DNA from: Haloarcula halobia
GTDB lineage: Archaea > Halobacteriota > Halobacteria > Halobacteriales > Haloarculaceae
Reading direction: 5' to 3'
Assembly: GCF_029338255.1 (NCBI RefSeq)
Contig: NZ_CP119787.1
Location: 806,001-870,000 of the forward strand
DNA: 64,000 nt
Positions 13,100 to 52,693 of this stretch are shown here, piece after piece (position 1 is the first letter of the stretch; each line of letters opens with the position of its first letter). The position numbers were made by a program, and so were the translations under genes. The notes under the pieces were generated by a model. That model was given only the letters and a program-made list of their open reading frames with translations, made no database searches and was not told the DNA's origin.

Positions 13100-14360
13100 C
13101 GGCTTGACCCAGACGAGCGAGGGACTTAATGATTGCCTGCTCGCCGCCGAACCCGCCCGCTTTCGTCACGACGGCCGTCCCGTCCGCGACGCCACCCTCG
13201 ACGGTCGCCAGCGGGACGCCCGGCGCGATCCCCTCGCCGGCCATGCGGAGCCGCTTCGCGTCGAGCTCCTCGAAGACGGTCCGTGCCGTCGCGCCGCCGG
13301 TCAGGAAGAGGTTCGGCGCCCGCCCCTCGTCGACGACACCGGCCGCGGCCGCGGCGAGCGCCTCGGCGACCCGTCGGCGTACCGCCGCGCCGTCGACGGC
13401 CGCGTGCTCGCCGGCGGCCATCGCCCGGTCGACGTCGGCGCGCCGCTCGGCACTCGAGAGCAGGACCGTCCCGTGGTCGTCGAGAGCGGCGCGGCCGCGG
13501 GCCGCCAGGTCGGCCCCCGCTCCCGCCGGATCGGTGACCGCATCCGCCACGGCGAGCTGTCGTCGCAGCGCTGCCGGGATGACCTCGAGCTGTGCGAGCG
13601 TCTCCGGAGCGACGCTCCCCGAGACGCCCACCACCGTCCGGTCCCGGTCGACGTCGATGCCCGCACCGGACGGCGCGCCCGGGACGGTGATGTGGCGGGC
13701 GAGCCCGCCGCTGCCGACGTACAGACACCGCTCGGGCAGCGCCTCGGCCGCCGCGGCGAGTGCCTCGAGGTGCCGGTCCGTCACGGCGTCACAGGTCACG
13801 ACGACCGGCCCGTCGGCCCCGGCCAGCGGTTCCAGTGTGTCGCGGACGGCGTCCGTTCCGTGCGCGACGGTCTCGACACCGACCGCTTCGACGGGATAGG
13901 GACTCTCGGCGAAGAGCTCGGGGAGCGCGTCGTGTGTCGGCGGCCGCTCCCCGTCGTCGCCGGGCGGCGACTCGGTCACCAGTCGCCCGTCGACGAGGTG
14001 GTAGCCGCTCGCAGTCAGGCGACCGTTGCCCGGGAACGCCGGTGCGACGAGGACGAGCGCGGGGTCGATCGCCCGCGTCGCGGCCTCGACCTCCGCACGG
14101 ACGTTCCCGCGGAGGGTCGAGTCGACTTTCTTGTAGACGACGGCTGGGTCGTGGGCGTCGAGGACAGCACGCACGCGCTCGGCAGCGAGCGCCGGGTCCA
14201 CGTACCGCGAGTCGGTGTTGGAGACGACGACGTCGCCGCCGGCCGGCGTCGCACGCTCCGGACCGACGACGACCCGGGTGTCGTAGTCGCGTGTCGCGAA
14301 CTCGTGGCCGGCGTCGCAGCTCCCGGTCAGGTCGTCCGCGAGCACGAGACAGCGGGTCAT
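13059..14360 (-). CDS. DUF1537 four-carbon acid sugar kinase
   Basis: A 433-residue kinase of the DUF1537 family (DtnK/DenK/OtnK type). The N-terminal domain begins CLVLADDLTGSCDAGHEFA, the family signature of the substrate-binding domain. KKVDSTLRGN near residue 84 is the second hallmark. The C-terminal nucleotide-binding domain has LFLTGGATARTVF and VVTKAGGFGG. The family phosphorylates D-threonate, D-erythronate or 3-oxo-tetronates at C4. The frame extends 18 codons upstream to 14414, but ATG 14360 starts directly at the conserved core. The 3' end overlaps pdxA2 by 41 bp, so the pair should be co-transcribed and translationally coupled: kinase first, dehydrogenase second in the pathway. 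Confidence 0.88.
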   Translation of the reverse strand: MTRCLVLADDLTGSCDAGHEFATRDYDTRVVVGPERATPAGGDVVVSNTDSRYVDPALAAERVRAVLDAHDPAVVYKKVDSTLRGNVRAEVEAATRAIDPALVLVAPAFPGNGRLTASGYHLVDGRLVTESPPGDDGERPPTHDALPELFAESPYPVEAVGVETVAHGTDAVRDTLEPLAGADGPVVVTCDAVTDRHLEALAAAAEALPERCLYVGSGGLARHITVPGAPSGAGIDVDRDRTVVGVSGSVAPETLAQLEVIPAALRRQLAVADAVTDPAGAGADLAARGRAALDDHGTVLLSSAERRADVDRAMAAGEHAAVDGAAVRRRVAEALAAAAAGVVDEGRAPNLFLTGGATARTVFEELDAKRLRMAGEGIAPGVPLATVEGGVADGTAVVTKAGGFGGEQAIIKSLARLGQADERSKHHRRRHHG

Positions 14361-45930: not shown

Positions 45931-46281
45931 TCATTCCGGATTCAGCTCGTCCCAGAGCTGACTGAACCGGTCGGGGAGGTTCTCCTCGCGGTAGATGCGG
46001 ACCCTGTACTCCTCGTCTTCAAGCGAGATGACAGTCGAGTCGAAGTTCGACTCGTAGACCTTGTAGTGGTTGCCGTCGTCGGCCACCAGTGTCTGGTCGG
46101 TGACCAGGTCGTACTCGTCTAACATCTCGATGCGACGGTAGACCGTCGGGAGGGACAGGTCACACTCGTCTGCGAGCTCCTTTGCCGACCGGGGCTCTTG
46201 ACTGATAGCGGCCAGGACACGTCGGGCGTGTGAATCGCCGATCGTATCCAGGATCTCCTCGATACTCTTGTCCTCGGACAC
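45931..46281 (-). CDS. ArsR-like winged helix transcriptional regulator
   Basis: A 116-residue protein with a single winged HTH at the N-terminus: IGDSHARRVLAAISQEPRSA, ELADECDLSLPTVYRRIEML and the wing YDLVTDQTLVADDGNHYKVY. The acidic C-terminal part (STVISLEDEEYRVRIYREEN) probably dimerises. No metal-binding Cys is present, so it is not a metal-sensing ArsR. It is transcribed with the downstream DUF7521-like membrane protein. Target genes are unknown; autoregulation is likely. Confidence 0.85.
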   Translation of the reverse strand: MSEDKSIEEILDTIGDSHARRVLAAISQEPRSAKELADECDLSLPTVYRRIEMLDEYDLVTDQTLVADDGNHYKVYESNFDSTVISLEDEEYRVRIYREENLPDRFSQLWDELNPE

Positions 46282-47029: not shown

Positions 47030-48664
47030 TCAGGGGAGCTGGACGAAGTAGTTCGCCGAGGTCCCGCTGTACTCGATGGAGAAGCCGAAGAAGTCCTTCG
47101 TCCCCACCTTGTCGAAGGTCAGCGTAATGGTCTGCTCGCCGCCTGCCGGCACGACGATGTCGCTGTCGACGGTGTCCCAGTCACCGAAGAGGTACAACGT
47201 GTCGGCGTCGTTGCCGTTCAACACAGCGGAATCCTGGTTTGCCTTGTTGCTGTTCGAGGAATAAAACAGGAGCCGGGCACGCGTTATCTTCTGGTCCTGG
47301 GTGCCGGTGTTGGCCAGCGTAACCTCCACCGTGCCCGTGTTCTTGCGTTCCACCGATTCCAGGCTCACGCTCCCGGGGGTCCCGGGGTTGATTTCGGAGA
47401 CGCTGTCCTCGCCACCACTCCCGCCGCCGACTGTGATTGTGAACGTCGTCCGTTCTCTGGGCTCGATGGTCCCGCTCCCGTCGAAGTCGCCTTCGGCGGT
47501 GACGACCGACGTTCCGGCGCTCGACGGCGAGAACACGACCGACGCCGCCCCGTCCTCGTCGCTCCGCTCCGTGACCGACGTCCCACCCGAGGGAAGGAAG
47601 GTCCCGTCGGACGTGCTGAACGTCACCTCGCCCGTCGCGGGGTTGTTGTACCGGTCCCGGACCTCGACGGCCAGTTCCGTCGACTCCCCGGTGCGGATGC
47701 TCTCCGTCACGTCGCCGTCTCCGGTCAGGTAGCGCGCGCCGAGGACGCTGTCGTCGACGTCACTGCCGACGCCGACCCGGGCAATCCGGAGCTGGTACTC
47801 GCCGGGCTCGAGGTTCACCGTCAGCGTGTTGTACGGGTCGCCGGGCGTGACGTCGATGTTGGCGACGTTGCCGTTCGGACTCCTCTCGTCCTCGAGGAGC
47901 GTCTCCCACTGTTCTTCGGTCAACGTCGTCGGGAGTTCGATCACGATGTCGCCGCTCCCGTCGTTGGTGATGGTCGTCGACGTGGTCGGCGCCGACAGGG
48001 GGACCGTCTCGATGGCCACCGACTGCGTGCTCGCCGTCGAGAGCTGGCCGTCGAGCAACACGAGCGTCACCTGGTCGCCCTCGATGAAGCTCCCCGAGCT
48101 GACGGGCAGTCCCGCACCGCCCTCGAAGGTGTTGACGAGCGTGTTGTGTTCGTACACCGTGACTGGCGCGTTTCCGTACTCGTTGTAGGCCGGCCGGTAA
48201 CGGAGCGTCGTCGTCTCGAAGGTCCTGTCGTCCCCGTTCCAGTAGGTGTCGGCCGACGGCGCGCGGGCGTTCGAAACTGTCACCGTCCCGGCACCCCTCG
48301 TCTCGATAGTTCCCGCCCCGACGCCGGGGTTGATGAGGAAGAACCGTGACGGGTAGCGTGCGGCGAGTTCCAGCTGGGCCGACCCCGGGACGTCCTCGGT
48401 CCCCGACTGGAGGATGGTGCGCTCGAGGTTCAACATGTCCTGCTGGACGCGCTTGTTGTGCTCGAACTCGACTTGCTGGTTCTCGGCCGGGACGGCGTTG
48501 ACCTGTATCAACGCGAGCATCGAGATGAGCAGTCCGAACATCAGTATCGCACCGACGACCGGCGAAACACCCCGGCTGTCGCGGCCGAACCGGCTAGCGG
48601 ACCGGGCGGGGTCGCGGGTTGACCGCTGGCGACTCTGTGACTGGGTCTGTGTCTCTTGTGTCAT
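47030..48664 (-). CDS. Archaellin/pilin-like surface protein with Ig-like domains
   Basis: A 544-residue protein. It has the class III signal typical of haloarchaeal pilins: basic segment SRFGRDSRGVSPVVGAILMF with cleavage expected after G of SRG, then a hydrophobic core through GLLISMLALIQVN. The remainder is extracellular and beta-rich: a domain with TTLRYRPAYNEYGNAPVTVY, an Ig/filamin-like part (STELAVEVRDRYNNPATGEV, then DGAASVVFSPSS) and a C-terminal jelly-roll-like part. It is much larger than typical pilins (~120-200), so a minor pilin or adhesin-like tip protein is likely. It is the last gene of the pilus operon, 6 bp after the platform gene. Confidence 0.83.
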   Translation of the reverse strand: MTQETQTQSQSRQRSTRDPARSASRFGRDSRGVSPVVGAILMFGLLISMLALIQVNAVPAENQQVEFEHNKRVQQDMLNLERTILQSGTEDVPGSAQLELAARYPSRFFLINPGVGAGTIETRGAGTVTVSNARAPSADTYWNGDDRTFETTTLRYRPAYNEYGNAPVTVYEHNTLVNTFEGGAGLPVSSGSFIEGDQVTLVLLDGQLSTASTQSVAIETVPLSAPTTSTTITNDGSGDIVIELPTTLTEEQWETLLEDERSPNGNVANIDVTPGDPYNTLTVNLEPGEYQLRIARVGVGSDVDDSVLGARYLTGDGDVTESIRTGESTELAVEVRDRYNNPATGEVTFSTSDGTFLPSGGTSVTERSDEDGAASVVFSPSSAGTSVVTAEGDFDGSGTIEPRERTTFTITVGGGSGGEDSVSEINPGTPGSVSLESVERKNTGTVEVTLANTGTQDQKITRARLLFYSSNSNKANQDSAVLNGNDADTLYLFGDWDTVDSDIVVPAGGEQTITLTFDKVGTKDFFGFSIEYSGTSANYFVQLP

Positions 48665-48670
48665 AGTCTG

Positions 48671-50800
48671 TTAGATGAGCATGAACGCGGCAGTTGAGAG
48701 CACCACGAGCCCGATTCCGTACTTCAGGCCGCTGAACGCGTCGTTGTCGACGAGTTTCCCGGCCAGCAGCCCGGAGCCGAGCCCCTGGATGATCGCCGAG
48801 TGGAAGAACAGCGTCTCGTAGGCCGCGATGGGCAGATTCGAAATGCTGATCGGTGCCTCGATGTCCGTGTTCGGAGCCGTCGTCTGGGTGTTCGCGATCG
48901 GTTCGAGATACGCCGTCGTCAGCATCGCGACGACGAGCAGGTAGACCAGGAACCCGATGATGACGACGGCGACGTAGGAACTGAGCTCGCGTCGTCGCTG
49001 TTGCTCTATCTTGAAGCGGTTCCGGGTGTCGTTGGCGGCGATACTGAGAACCCGCGCGAGGTCGCTGCTCGAGCGCATCCCCTCGGCGATGAGCTTGATC
49101 GCCCGCGAGAGCTGTGGGACGCGCAGTCGGTCGGCGAACGAACGGAGTGCCCGGGACGTGTCGTGGTTCCACTCGATGTCGTTGCGGACCTTCCGCAGTT
49201 CCGTCTCGATGGGGCCACTCGACCACTTCGCGACGAGGCCGAGCGCCTCGGTGGTCGGCACGCCCATCTTGTTCGCGCTCGACAGCGCGTTCATCGTGTC
49301 CGGGAACTGGCTGGCGATCCGGTTCTCGCGACGCCGCTTTCGCTCGACGAACGCCGACAGCGGCACGATGACGACGAGGAGCGGCACGACGACGAGCAGG
49401 AGCGTCGCGACGCGGGGTGCATCGAGGAACGCCTGTCGGCTCAGTTCCGCGCTCCCCGCGTTGACGACGCCCCCGACCCAGAGCACTGCGAGCGGGACGC
49501 TCACCGGCAGTGTCATCAGGGGGCTGGCATCGAAGACGGCCGTCACCGGGAACAACGAATCGACGAAGTACCGCTGCCGGCGCTGGCGGAGGTACGCCCT
49601 CTGTTCTATTTGCATCTGCGCTTCGGGAGACGTCTCCTCGGCGCCATTGACCGCCGATGCGACCGTCTCGATCGCCTGCTGGACGAGATCCCGGGCGACC
49701 AGCACCGCGAGTCGCGCCGTCCCGTCGTTCGTGACGTGGTGTTCCGTTTCGAGGTCGACCTTCGGCTGGGTGAACGGGCTCGACAGCGTGTCGATCAGCA
49801 CGAGGAACATCACCATCGCCAGCGGCATCACGGCATAGACCAGGAGCGTGACCTGGCCGACGGTGTTCGCGCCAAGCAGGCTCATCACGATGAGGATGAC
49901 GATGAGGAACAGCGGTGCGGCGACGAACAGGACGACGAAAACCTCGCTCAGCAACGAGAGCGTCTCGAGGAACCCGGTCTGTTCGTCCCGTGCCTCCTCG
50001 AGGTAGGCGTCGGTCTGGGTCTCTAAGAACACCGTCACTTCGCCGCCCGAGTCGATCACGCTCAACAGGTCGTCGAAGAACTGTTCTAAGTTGTCACTCG
50101 GGGTGATGTTCCGGGCGTTCTGCAGGGCCGTATAGAGGTCGTTCCCGAACAGTTCGACGTCGCGGACGATCATCTGGAACTCGTTTGCCACCTCGCCGTA
50201 GGTGTCCTGGGCCGACCCGAGTATCTTGATCGTCTCGACGATGTCCATCCCGCCGTACGACAGCGCGTACATGAATGTGATCGCGTGTGGGAGGGTGACG
50301 TTGATGTTTCGACGCCGGCCGCCGACCAGCGATTTCGGATAGTAGTACCGGGCGAACCACGTCCCGCCGGCAAGGAGGCTGGCGGCGACGATAGCGAGCG
50401 CCCCACCGGTGAACAGCGTCCTGTTCTCGCCGAGGTACACCGTCACCTCGCCCCGGAACTCGAAGGGGTTCGACAGAGACCCGACGACGCCCAGGTCGAC
50501 GAGGACGACGGTCAGGAGGACGCCCGCTACCACCCCGACGAACGCCGCTGCGATGGCGTACATCGCGGTCCGCTCGAGGTACACGTCGTAGTTCTGCCCG
50601 AACCGGGCCTGGTTCAGCCAGCGCTGGAGGTTCCGGTACTTCTTCGGGCGGAGTCGGTAGTAGCTCCGGAGGTACCCGTACTGCTCGCGGAACTCCTCGC
50701 TGTCCTCGGGCCGGACCGACTCGGGGTCCCGGTACTGACTGACCCCGGTATCGGTCGACGTTCCCCGACTGGAGGCGCTCCGGTAGTCGTCTCCCCCCAT
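48671..50800 (-). CDS. Type IV pilus platform protein, TadC/PilC-like
   Basis: A 709-residue membrane protein with two T2SSF (GspF) domains, one around residues 150-310 (NVTLPHAITFMYALSYGGMD) and one around 490-650 (FPDTMNALSSANKMGVPTTE). Each is followed by two to three membrane helices, and a further two-helix region is near residue 75. The N-terminal RPKKYRNLQRWLNQARFG is typical of haloarchaeal PilC-type proteins. It is expected to anchor the ATPase and nucleate pilus growth. The start overlaps the ATPase stop by one base (TGATG). Confidence 0.9.
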   Translation of the reverse strand: MGGDDYRSASSRGTSTDTGVSQYRDPESVRPEDSEEFREQYGYLRSYYRLRPKKYRNLQRWLNQARFGQNYDVYLERTAMYAIAAAFVGVVAGVLLTVVLVDLGVVGSLSNPFEFRGEVTVYLGENRTLFTGGALAIVAASLLAGGTWFARYYYPKSLVGGRRRNINVTLPHAITFMYALSYGGMDIVETIKILGSAQDTYGEVANEFQMIVRDVELFGNDLYTALQNARNITPSDNLEQFFDDLLSVIDSGGEVTVFLETQTDAYLEEARDEQTGFLETLSLLSEVFVVLFVAAPLFLIVILIVMSLLGANTVGQVTLLVYAVMPLAMVMFLVLIDTLSSPFTQPKVDLETEHHVTNDGTARLAVLVARDLVQQAIETVASAVNGAEETSPEAQMQIEQRAYLRQRRQRYFVDSLFPVTAVFDASPLMTLPVSVPLAVLWVGGVVNAGSAELSRQAFLDAPRVATLLLVVVPLLVVIVPLSAFVERKRRRENRIASQFPDTMNALSSANKMGVPTTEALGLVAKWSSGPIETELRKVRNDIEWNHDTSRALRSFADRLRVPQLSRAIKLIAEGMRSSSDLARVLSIAANDTRNRFKIEQQRRRELSSYVAVVIIGFLVYLLVVAMLTTAYLEPIANTQTTAPNTDIEAPISISNLPIAAYETLFFHSAIIQGLGSGLLAGKLVDNDAFSGLKYGIGLVVLSTAAFMLI

Positions 50801-52693
50801 CAGCCGTCCTCAATGAGCGTTCGCAGGTCGACGTCGTTCGACTTCATCCCCTCGAGGTTGGGCCCATGTTTCCGGAGGTACTCGCCGGTGAGTCGACCCG
50901 CTTCGAGGTCGGCCATCGTCCCCTCGTGGTCCTTGTCGAACAGCTGAATCGCGCCGGTCACCTCGACGTAGCCGTTGATCCCCTCGTCGGCGAGGTATTG
51001 CAGGAGCCGTCGCCGGTCTTCGAGTTGCCGGTCGAGTTCCTCGTCGTCCCAGCCCCGCTCGCTGGCGATCTCGACCATCAACTCGGACTTTCCAGTCTGC
51101 TCGTGCGTGTCGGTCTCGGCGTCGCGCTTGAACACTGTCTTCGAGCGGACCTCGCTGCTGTCGTACTCCTGGGGCAGTATCTCGGCCGTCTCGACGTTCC
51201 GGCGGACGCGCTCGTCGCCCATGTAGGTCTGGCGCTGTATCGAGACGATGTCCAGGTCCTGGAGCATCTGGACCGGGACGTTGAGCGGCTCGTTTTCCAT
51301 CCGGGAGATGACCGTCTCGACGGAGTCGGCGTGGAACGTCGTGTAGGCCGTGTGGCCCGTCGACATCGCCTGGAAGAAGGTCAGTGCGACCCGCTCTTCG
51401 GTCCGGATCTCCCCGACGAGGAGGTACTCCGGCCGCTGTCTGAGTGCGGCATTGAGGAGGTTGTACATGCTGACTTCGCCACGGCCCTCGGCGGTCAGCG
51501 GCGTACGCGTGACGCTCTGGATCCAGTTCTCGTGGGGGAGGTCGATCTCGCGCGTGTCCTCGATGGAGACGATCTTGCTCGACGGCGGGATGGAAAAACG
51601 AGATGGCGTTCATGCTCGAGGTCTTGCCCGACCCCGTGCCGCCGGCGAAGATGAGCGACTTGTTGTTCTGGATCGCGATCCAGTAGTACGCCATCAACTC
51701 CGCCGAGAACGTGTTCCACCGGACGAGGTCGACCGGGGTGAAGGGAATGTCGGCGAACTTCCTGATGGTGAAGTTCGACCCGCGGGTGCTGATGTCGCCG
51801 CCCAGCGTCATCTGCACGCGGCTCCCGTTCGGGAGCGAGGCGTCGACGAGCGGGCTCGAGACCGTGAGTTGCTTCCCGGCCCGCTGGGCCGTCCGGAAGA
51901 TGAAGGAGTCGAGCGATTCGCGGTCGAAGGCGATGTTCGACTTCAGGTCGCGGTACTCCCGGTGGTAGACGAACACCGGGACGTTCGTCCCGTCACAGGA
52001 GACGTCCTCGACCGCGGGGTCACGCATGATGGGATCGATGGCTCCGTAGTCGATGAAGTCACGGACGAGGTAGTACAGGAGCTTGTGGAGCGTCCCGGCC
52101 TCGACCGTCGCGGCGTTCTTCAGGATCATCTCCTTCGCTTCCTGTTCGAACAGTGTCCGGCGCTCGAGTTCGTCGTCGAAATCCTTGTACATGAGCTGGT
52201 TGCGCAGCAGCTCGACGAGGTCGGTCCGGACGTACCGCTCGAAGTTGTTCATCGTCACCTCCGTGACGAGGTATCTGTGCTCCCGTGTGTGGTCGTCGTA
52301 GACGATGGCGACGAACGCGTAGGGCTTTCGCACCCACCGGTACTCGACCAGTTCGTACGCGTCGAGAAACGAGAAGTCGAAAAAGCGCGTCGCGATGAAC
52401 TCGTTCGACGGCGCGTCGGCGAACTCCTCGTCCGTGTTCTCGACGTAGTAGTTGCGAACGTCGGTGAGGATGTCGGTCACTGTCGGGTCCTCCCACAGGA
52501 CCATCTCCGTTTCGGACTGCTCGTCCTCGGAGTCGACCCGTTCGATGTCGAGCGCTTCTGTCAGCTGTTCGTCGGGCTGTTCGTCGCCCTCGCGTCGCTC
52601 GGAGACGCCGGCTGCCGATTCGGCGGTACTCTCCAACAGATTGCTGGCCTGTTCGGTTACCCCTCGTCCTCCTGTCGTTGGTTCGTCGTTCAT
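50800..52693 (-). pseudogene. Type IV pilus assembly ATPase (TadA/PilB-like), frameshifted
   Basis: A secretion ATPase of the GspE/TadA family, broken by one extra base. From ATG 52693 the first ~365 residues run through an acidic N-terminus, the N1 domain (RDFIDYGAIDPIMRDPAVED) and Walker A GGTGSGKTSSMNAIS. The frame then fails at a five-T run followed by CC (minus strand; 51592-51598). The downstream frame continues without gap: PPSSKIVSIEDTREID, PEYLLVGEIRTEE (Walker B), TTFHADSVETVISRM (His box), to the stop at 50800-50802. The length is 1893 nt if one base is removed, i.e. 630 residues. Either a sequencing or assembly error, phase-variable slippage, or a recent null allele. The operon downstream is intact. 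Confidence 0.9.

Follow-up and report, generated by a model that had tools for sequence, protein, structure and literature searches.

A frameshifted accessory PilB3-like pilus ATPase gene in Haloarcula halobia: a probable recent insertion with a close rival in base-call error

The stretch of DNA analysed here, called the window, comprises 64,000 nucleotides of Haloarcula halobia (C1:806001-870000 of a 3.48-Mb, two-contig genome). An ORF scan and the sequence reveal that its PilB3-like pilus-assembly ATPase gene, at 50803-52693 on the minus strand, is split between two reading frames. At a probability of roughly 0.52, we favour the view that a single base, recently inserted in the clone that was sequenced, inactivated this accessory type IV pilus ATPase; a residual error in base calling is not far behind. 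The frameshift as such is confirmed. A literature search on haloarchaea, frameshifts and pilB returned no match. The locus should be recorded as a disrupted accessory pilus ATPase and not as a piliation switch, and serves mainly as a caution. A genuine insertion would make the strain a naturally occurring mutant in which to probe the role of an accessory pilus beside a more widespread system.

Two frames of one ATPase gene

The longer of the two frames is a 627-aa ORF (50810-52693, minus strand) that contains a Walker A motif (GGTGSGKT). The second minus-strand frame is open from 50803 to 51609 and carries the motifs IEDTREI, LLVGEI and GHTAYTTFHAD, which we take to be the Asp box, Walker B and the His box, respectively. 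The N-terminal half of the gene (51593-52693) supplies 367 codons and stops just past Walker A, and the C-terminal half (50803-51591), with the other three motifs and the PilB3_C domain, supplies 263, giving a sum of 630. The frame changes at 51592-51598, where the minus strand reads T5CC. The T2SSE core (PF00437) spans both halves in consecutive profile ranges, with positions 65-162 in the N half (E 2.9e-5; 23.3 bits, under the curated cut-off of 24.9) and positions 171-279 in the C half (E 6.5e-21; 74.8 bits). PilB3_C (PF23989) is matched by the C half with 38.7 bits against a cut-off of 27. All four motifs stand in a single frame in the orthologues from genomes G018 and G012, compared with two frames in the window. 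The split represents more than chance, because both halves align end to end with the single open frames of these two orthologues. The original prediction had placed Walker A in one frame and Walker B and the His box in another; the ORF scan and the PF00437 ranges bear this out, and the predicted location of the T5CC site and total of 630 codons are right.

Downstream of the frame change, the 627-aa ORF continues as an out-of-frame tail (50810-51592, minus strand) that ends in a stop nine bases ahead of the start codon of the next gene, pilC. This shifted frame is open for 261 codons, which is nothing unusual in coding DNA this rich in GC, given that 34% of 2088 sampled positions in the same offset are equally open. 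The TGA of the native C-terminal frame overlaps the pilC ATG (TGATG).

The ATPase gene is followed in a row by genes for a PilC-like membrane protein (T2SSF, 709 aa; 48671-50800, minus strand) and a pilin-like protein (544 aa; 47030-48664, minus strand). Both are open, in agreement with the claim that the two downstream pilus genes are intact. The Pilin_N match of the pilin-like protein barely exceeds its cut-off (26.0 versus 25.2 bits), and an Ig-like Big_1 match falls short of its own. Two H. rubra queries match the window in two frames each at these two genes, but we rejected these matches as breaks and read them as stop-to-stop query extensions into the neighbouring gene. Directly downstream of the pilin-like gene lies a gene for a small winged-helix-like regulator (116 aa; 45931-46281, minus strand), whose family was judged by eye.

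Orthologues, selection and paralogues

Orthologues were collected at E<=1e-120 from 392 genomes of the order, and 28 genomes besides the source yielded 29 loci, with Halomicroarcula sp. SYNS111 and H. rubra F13 among the sources. On tblastn comparison, the window has one additional base between the halves and the orthologues have none: no locus (0/29) carries an extra base or a frameshift at the junction. The site reads TTTTTC at 10 of the 29 loci, including the three nearest orthologues, which come from the same genus, and TTCTTC at the other 19, compared with TTTTTCC in the window. From this alignment, the added base is a C placed after the run, with the T run itself as long as in the T5 orthologues. 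The proposal that the frameshift arose from the homopolymer is therefore unsupported. Seven other T2SSE matches occur in the genome, none with a stop inside the match, and the five of these loci that align with both halves all lack the extra base. A plasmid search returned five partial records of 66-71% identity, and a pattern match on a viral contig (L138) was put down to chance in AT-rich DNA.

The orthologue from Halomicroarcula sp. SYNS111 (G017) is in frame at the site and frameshifted elsewhere in the gene. We considered parallel loss in this sister species and rejected it, reading the break as an error in an assembly with a completeness of 90. Compared with genes that are open in the window, this assembly (L056-L059) has seven frame changes in 80 kb and seems error-rich; the seven include one each in this ATPase, PilC and the pilin-like gene. 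Among the 49 frames of SYNS111 that match the window, the sole break assigned to the window is the one in the ATPase gene. A further pair of SYNS111 frames, in PilC, was attributed to a break in SYNS111 itself.

Selection was assessed by Nei-Gojobori dN/dS against G017, G018 and G012, in that order, with the C-half comparison to G017 covering the 138 codons before its own break. The values are 0.27, 0.22 and 0.31 for the N half and 0.07, 0.26 and 0.21 for the C half, and the reference comparison of G018 with G012 gives 0.23 and 0.25. Window-specific codon changes are synonymous rather than nonsynonymous by 20 to 5 in the N half and 7 to 2 in the C half. These ratios show purifying selection on both halves. 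The gene is otherwise whole, as originally described, with one lesion and dN/dS like that of intact orthologues in place of the several lesions or relaxed selection of a decayed pseudogene. Because of this wholeness, the low dN/dS and the mainly synonymous window-specific changes, any real lesion would be recent.

The ATPase is present at E<=1e-120 in only 4 of 32 genomes of the genus, whereas another relative with 45-49% identity, free of stops inside the match, occurs in all 32, including the source. We call the pilus system accessory on this basis, and to claim that piliation was lost altogether would go too far. In Haloferax volcanii, PilB3-C3 can replace PilB1-C1 but not vice versa (PMC6491452), and by analogy cover by the paralogue in the source genome is plausible.

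If one base was recently inserted in the accessory ATPase gene of the sequenced clone, the 627-aa product would retain Walker A but none of the other three motifs, leaving pilus assembly probably unpowered. Since translation in the shifted frame would end shortly before the pilC start, PilC may still be made. The widespread PilB-type paralogue could then sustain general piliation, which would cut the cost of the loss.

Errors at the contig ends and frameshift candidates in the interior

A search for tgtA recovered a broken copy at C1:32597-33888 (L131) and a whole copy at C1:3317662-3318954. The frameshifted copy at the contig start is one that an annotation pipeline could call as a false pseudogene. 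The entire segment C1:1-69598 duplicates the last 69.6 kb of the contig (from about C1:3285050) at 99.83% identity, the pattern expected when the overlap of a circular chromosome is left untrimmed. This redundant end is the more useful by-product of the analysis, as it offers an internal measure of assembly errors. Differences between the two copies form 78 clusters, of which 60 alter the frame, and successive 10-kb intervals along the duplicate contain 22, 10, 5, 9, 2, 13 and 17 clusters.

The differences are concentrated at AGCT and CCWGG. In 70 of the 78 clusters, AGCT, CCWGG or CTAG lies within 8 bases in either copy, compared with 6.5% of random 17-mers. The remaining eight touch runs of at least four bases without a motif, and seven of these alter the run length, one being T5 versus T4. 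This pattern suggests that long-read base calling went wrong at modified motifs (compare PMC10687267). It also suggests that the AGCT and CCWGG motifs are modified in the organism. One conceivable cause of the many errors at the ends, that short reads cannot be placed in duplicates (compare PMC8812927, on Polypolish), is unsupported, as interior insertion sequence (IS) copies are identical; in view of the cluster counts per 10 kb, low read depth towards the ends would be a better fit.

Two interior copies of one IS agree over all 1065 bases with each other and with the right-end copy, and the left-end copy departs from them at three places. Another interior IS pair shows one substitution in 1073 bases. 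Copies of the rRNA operon were too divergent to serve as a control. We also scanned 664 kb of the genome in 31 pieces for frameshifts, with the antisense ghosts of earlier scans filtered out; dropping the two duplicated-end pieces leaves an interior of 29 pieces and 624 kb. Sensitivity was 205 of 400 simulated deletions. The scan yielded 12 candidates, 5 of them in the duplicated ends (L098 and L117) and 7 in the interior. At the rate of the ends, where 60 differences change the frame over 2 x 69.6 kb, with a 494-kb coding pool and the same 205/400 recovery, about 109 detectable interior frameshifts would be expected. The interior is much cleaner than the ends, as this shortfall and the nearly or fully identical IS copies demonstrate.

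Homology on both sides of the break was found for two of the seven interior candidates, the pilus ATPase gene and an ABC-transporter ATPase gene in L051 whose two frames both match ABC_tran and which has a second lesion too. The latter (L051:3815-4476, minus strand) lies beside a permease gene apparently truncated at its start, and the pair appears to be a decayed operon. For the candidates in L053, L100 and L111, a Pfam match in both frames was not found, and those at window position 13119 and L054 position 15411 look like ordinary adjacent genes.

The ATPase site has no AGCT, CCWGG or CTAG, the nearest being 225 bases away, and none of the three motifs was found at the site in the three nearest orthologues; the site does touch the T5 run. 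We initially took motif absence at interior candidates as evidence against error, and dropped this argument after two controls. The five duplicated-end candidates are also motif-free when judged from the broken copy alone, and 78% of randomly sampled positions come within one base of a motif. A single-copy motif test therefore does not discriminate, and the interior candidates, the ATPase gene included, may still be errors. For the ATPase site, the orthologues are a better proxy than this test. Dropping the argument lowered our probability for a recent mutation from 0.57 to the present value and raised that for error correspondingly.

Explanations weighed and comparison with known systems

Sequencing error, phase variation and a fresh mutation had been offered as options for the extra base; the first and last stand, with mutation slightly favoured, and phase variation is unsupported. 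For the insertion we count the 29 in-frame orthologue loci, the single lesion, the low dN/dS and the open partner genes, together with the cleaner interior, the lack of a motif at the site, and an accessory gene with an open paralogue. Counted against it are the contact of the site with T5 and the eight end differences at runs without a motif. A base-calling or assembly error, in which the organism has an intact gene and the consensus gained a base beside the T5 run, is a serious contender that falls a little short of an even chance. The assembly demonstrably holds such errors, as the end clusters attest, the gene is otherwise whole among open neighbours, and the assembly of the nearest relative, SYNS111, has frame changes in all three of these pilus genes. 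However, the interior is far less affected than the ends, the site is motif-free in the window and the three nearest orthologues, and the T run has the length seen at 10 orthologue loci, whereas seven of the eight end differences confined to runs alter the run. The ATPase gene is also the sole window-assigned break against SYNS111.

Reversible slippage at T5/CC that switches the pilus on and off is improbable. Such a switch would suit a gene for a surface structure that is preserved except for a single lesion next to a short run, and a survey that includes 18 archaeal genomes proposes that homopolymeric tracts are a general inactivation system in prokaryotes (PMC2831843). However, comparing between species only, the run does not change in length among the 10 T5 loci and is TTCTTC at the other 19, and the added base sits outside it. 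The site is also mid-gene, at codon 367 of 630, whereas that survey, which studied position effects from five bases up, finds the longer tracts near the 5' end. Still slightly harder to credit is a natural on/off switch for the accessory pilus of which the lesion would be one state, with pilC translation kept through the open shifted frame. The least credible proposal is programmed +1 recoding, with a ribosome slip at TTT TTC C giving the full protein. The three genus orthologues do keep TTTTTC, but the frameshift is conserved at none of the 29 loci, and the other T2SSE loci of the genome have neither internal stops nor, where they align fully, an extra base. Recoding and slippage switching are both unlikely because every orthologue locus is in frame at the site and the extra C follows an unchanged T run.

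The locus resembles the singleton frameshifted genes of another survey (PMC3711429), having one lesion, no conserved site and homology on both sides. That survey expects BLASTp-validated singletons to reflect sequencing error and not true indels, which counts against the insertion, and membership in this class by itself leaves error versus mutation undecided. With slipped-strand phase-variable genes it shares a surface structure and a single-base change near a run; unlike in those genes, the run is short and constant in length, and the extra base lies outside it. A further likeness is to the haloarchaeal PilB3/PilB1-type ATPases of the T2SSE family, relatives of the archaellum ATPase, with which it shares PF00437, PilB3_C and the row of ATPase, PilC-like and pilin-like genes. 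The window gene differs from these in being split between two frames and in its narrow occurrence within the genus at the threshold used.
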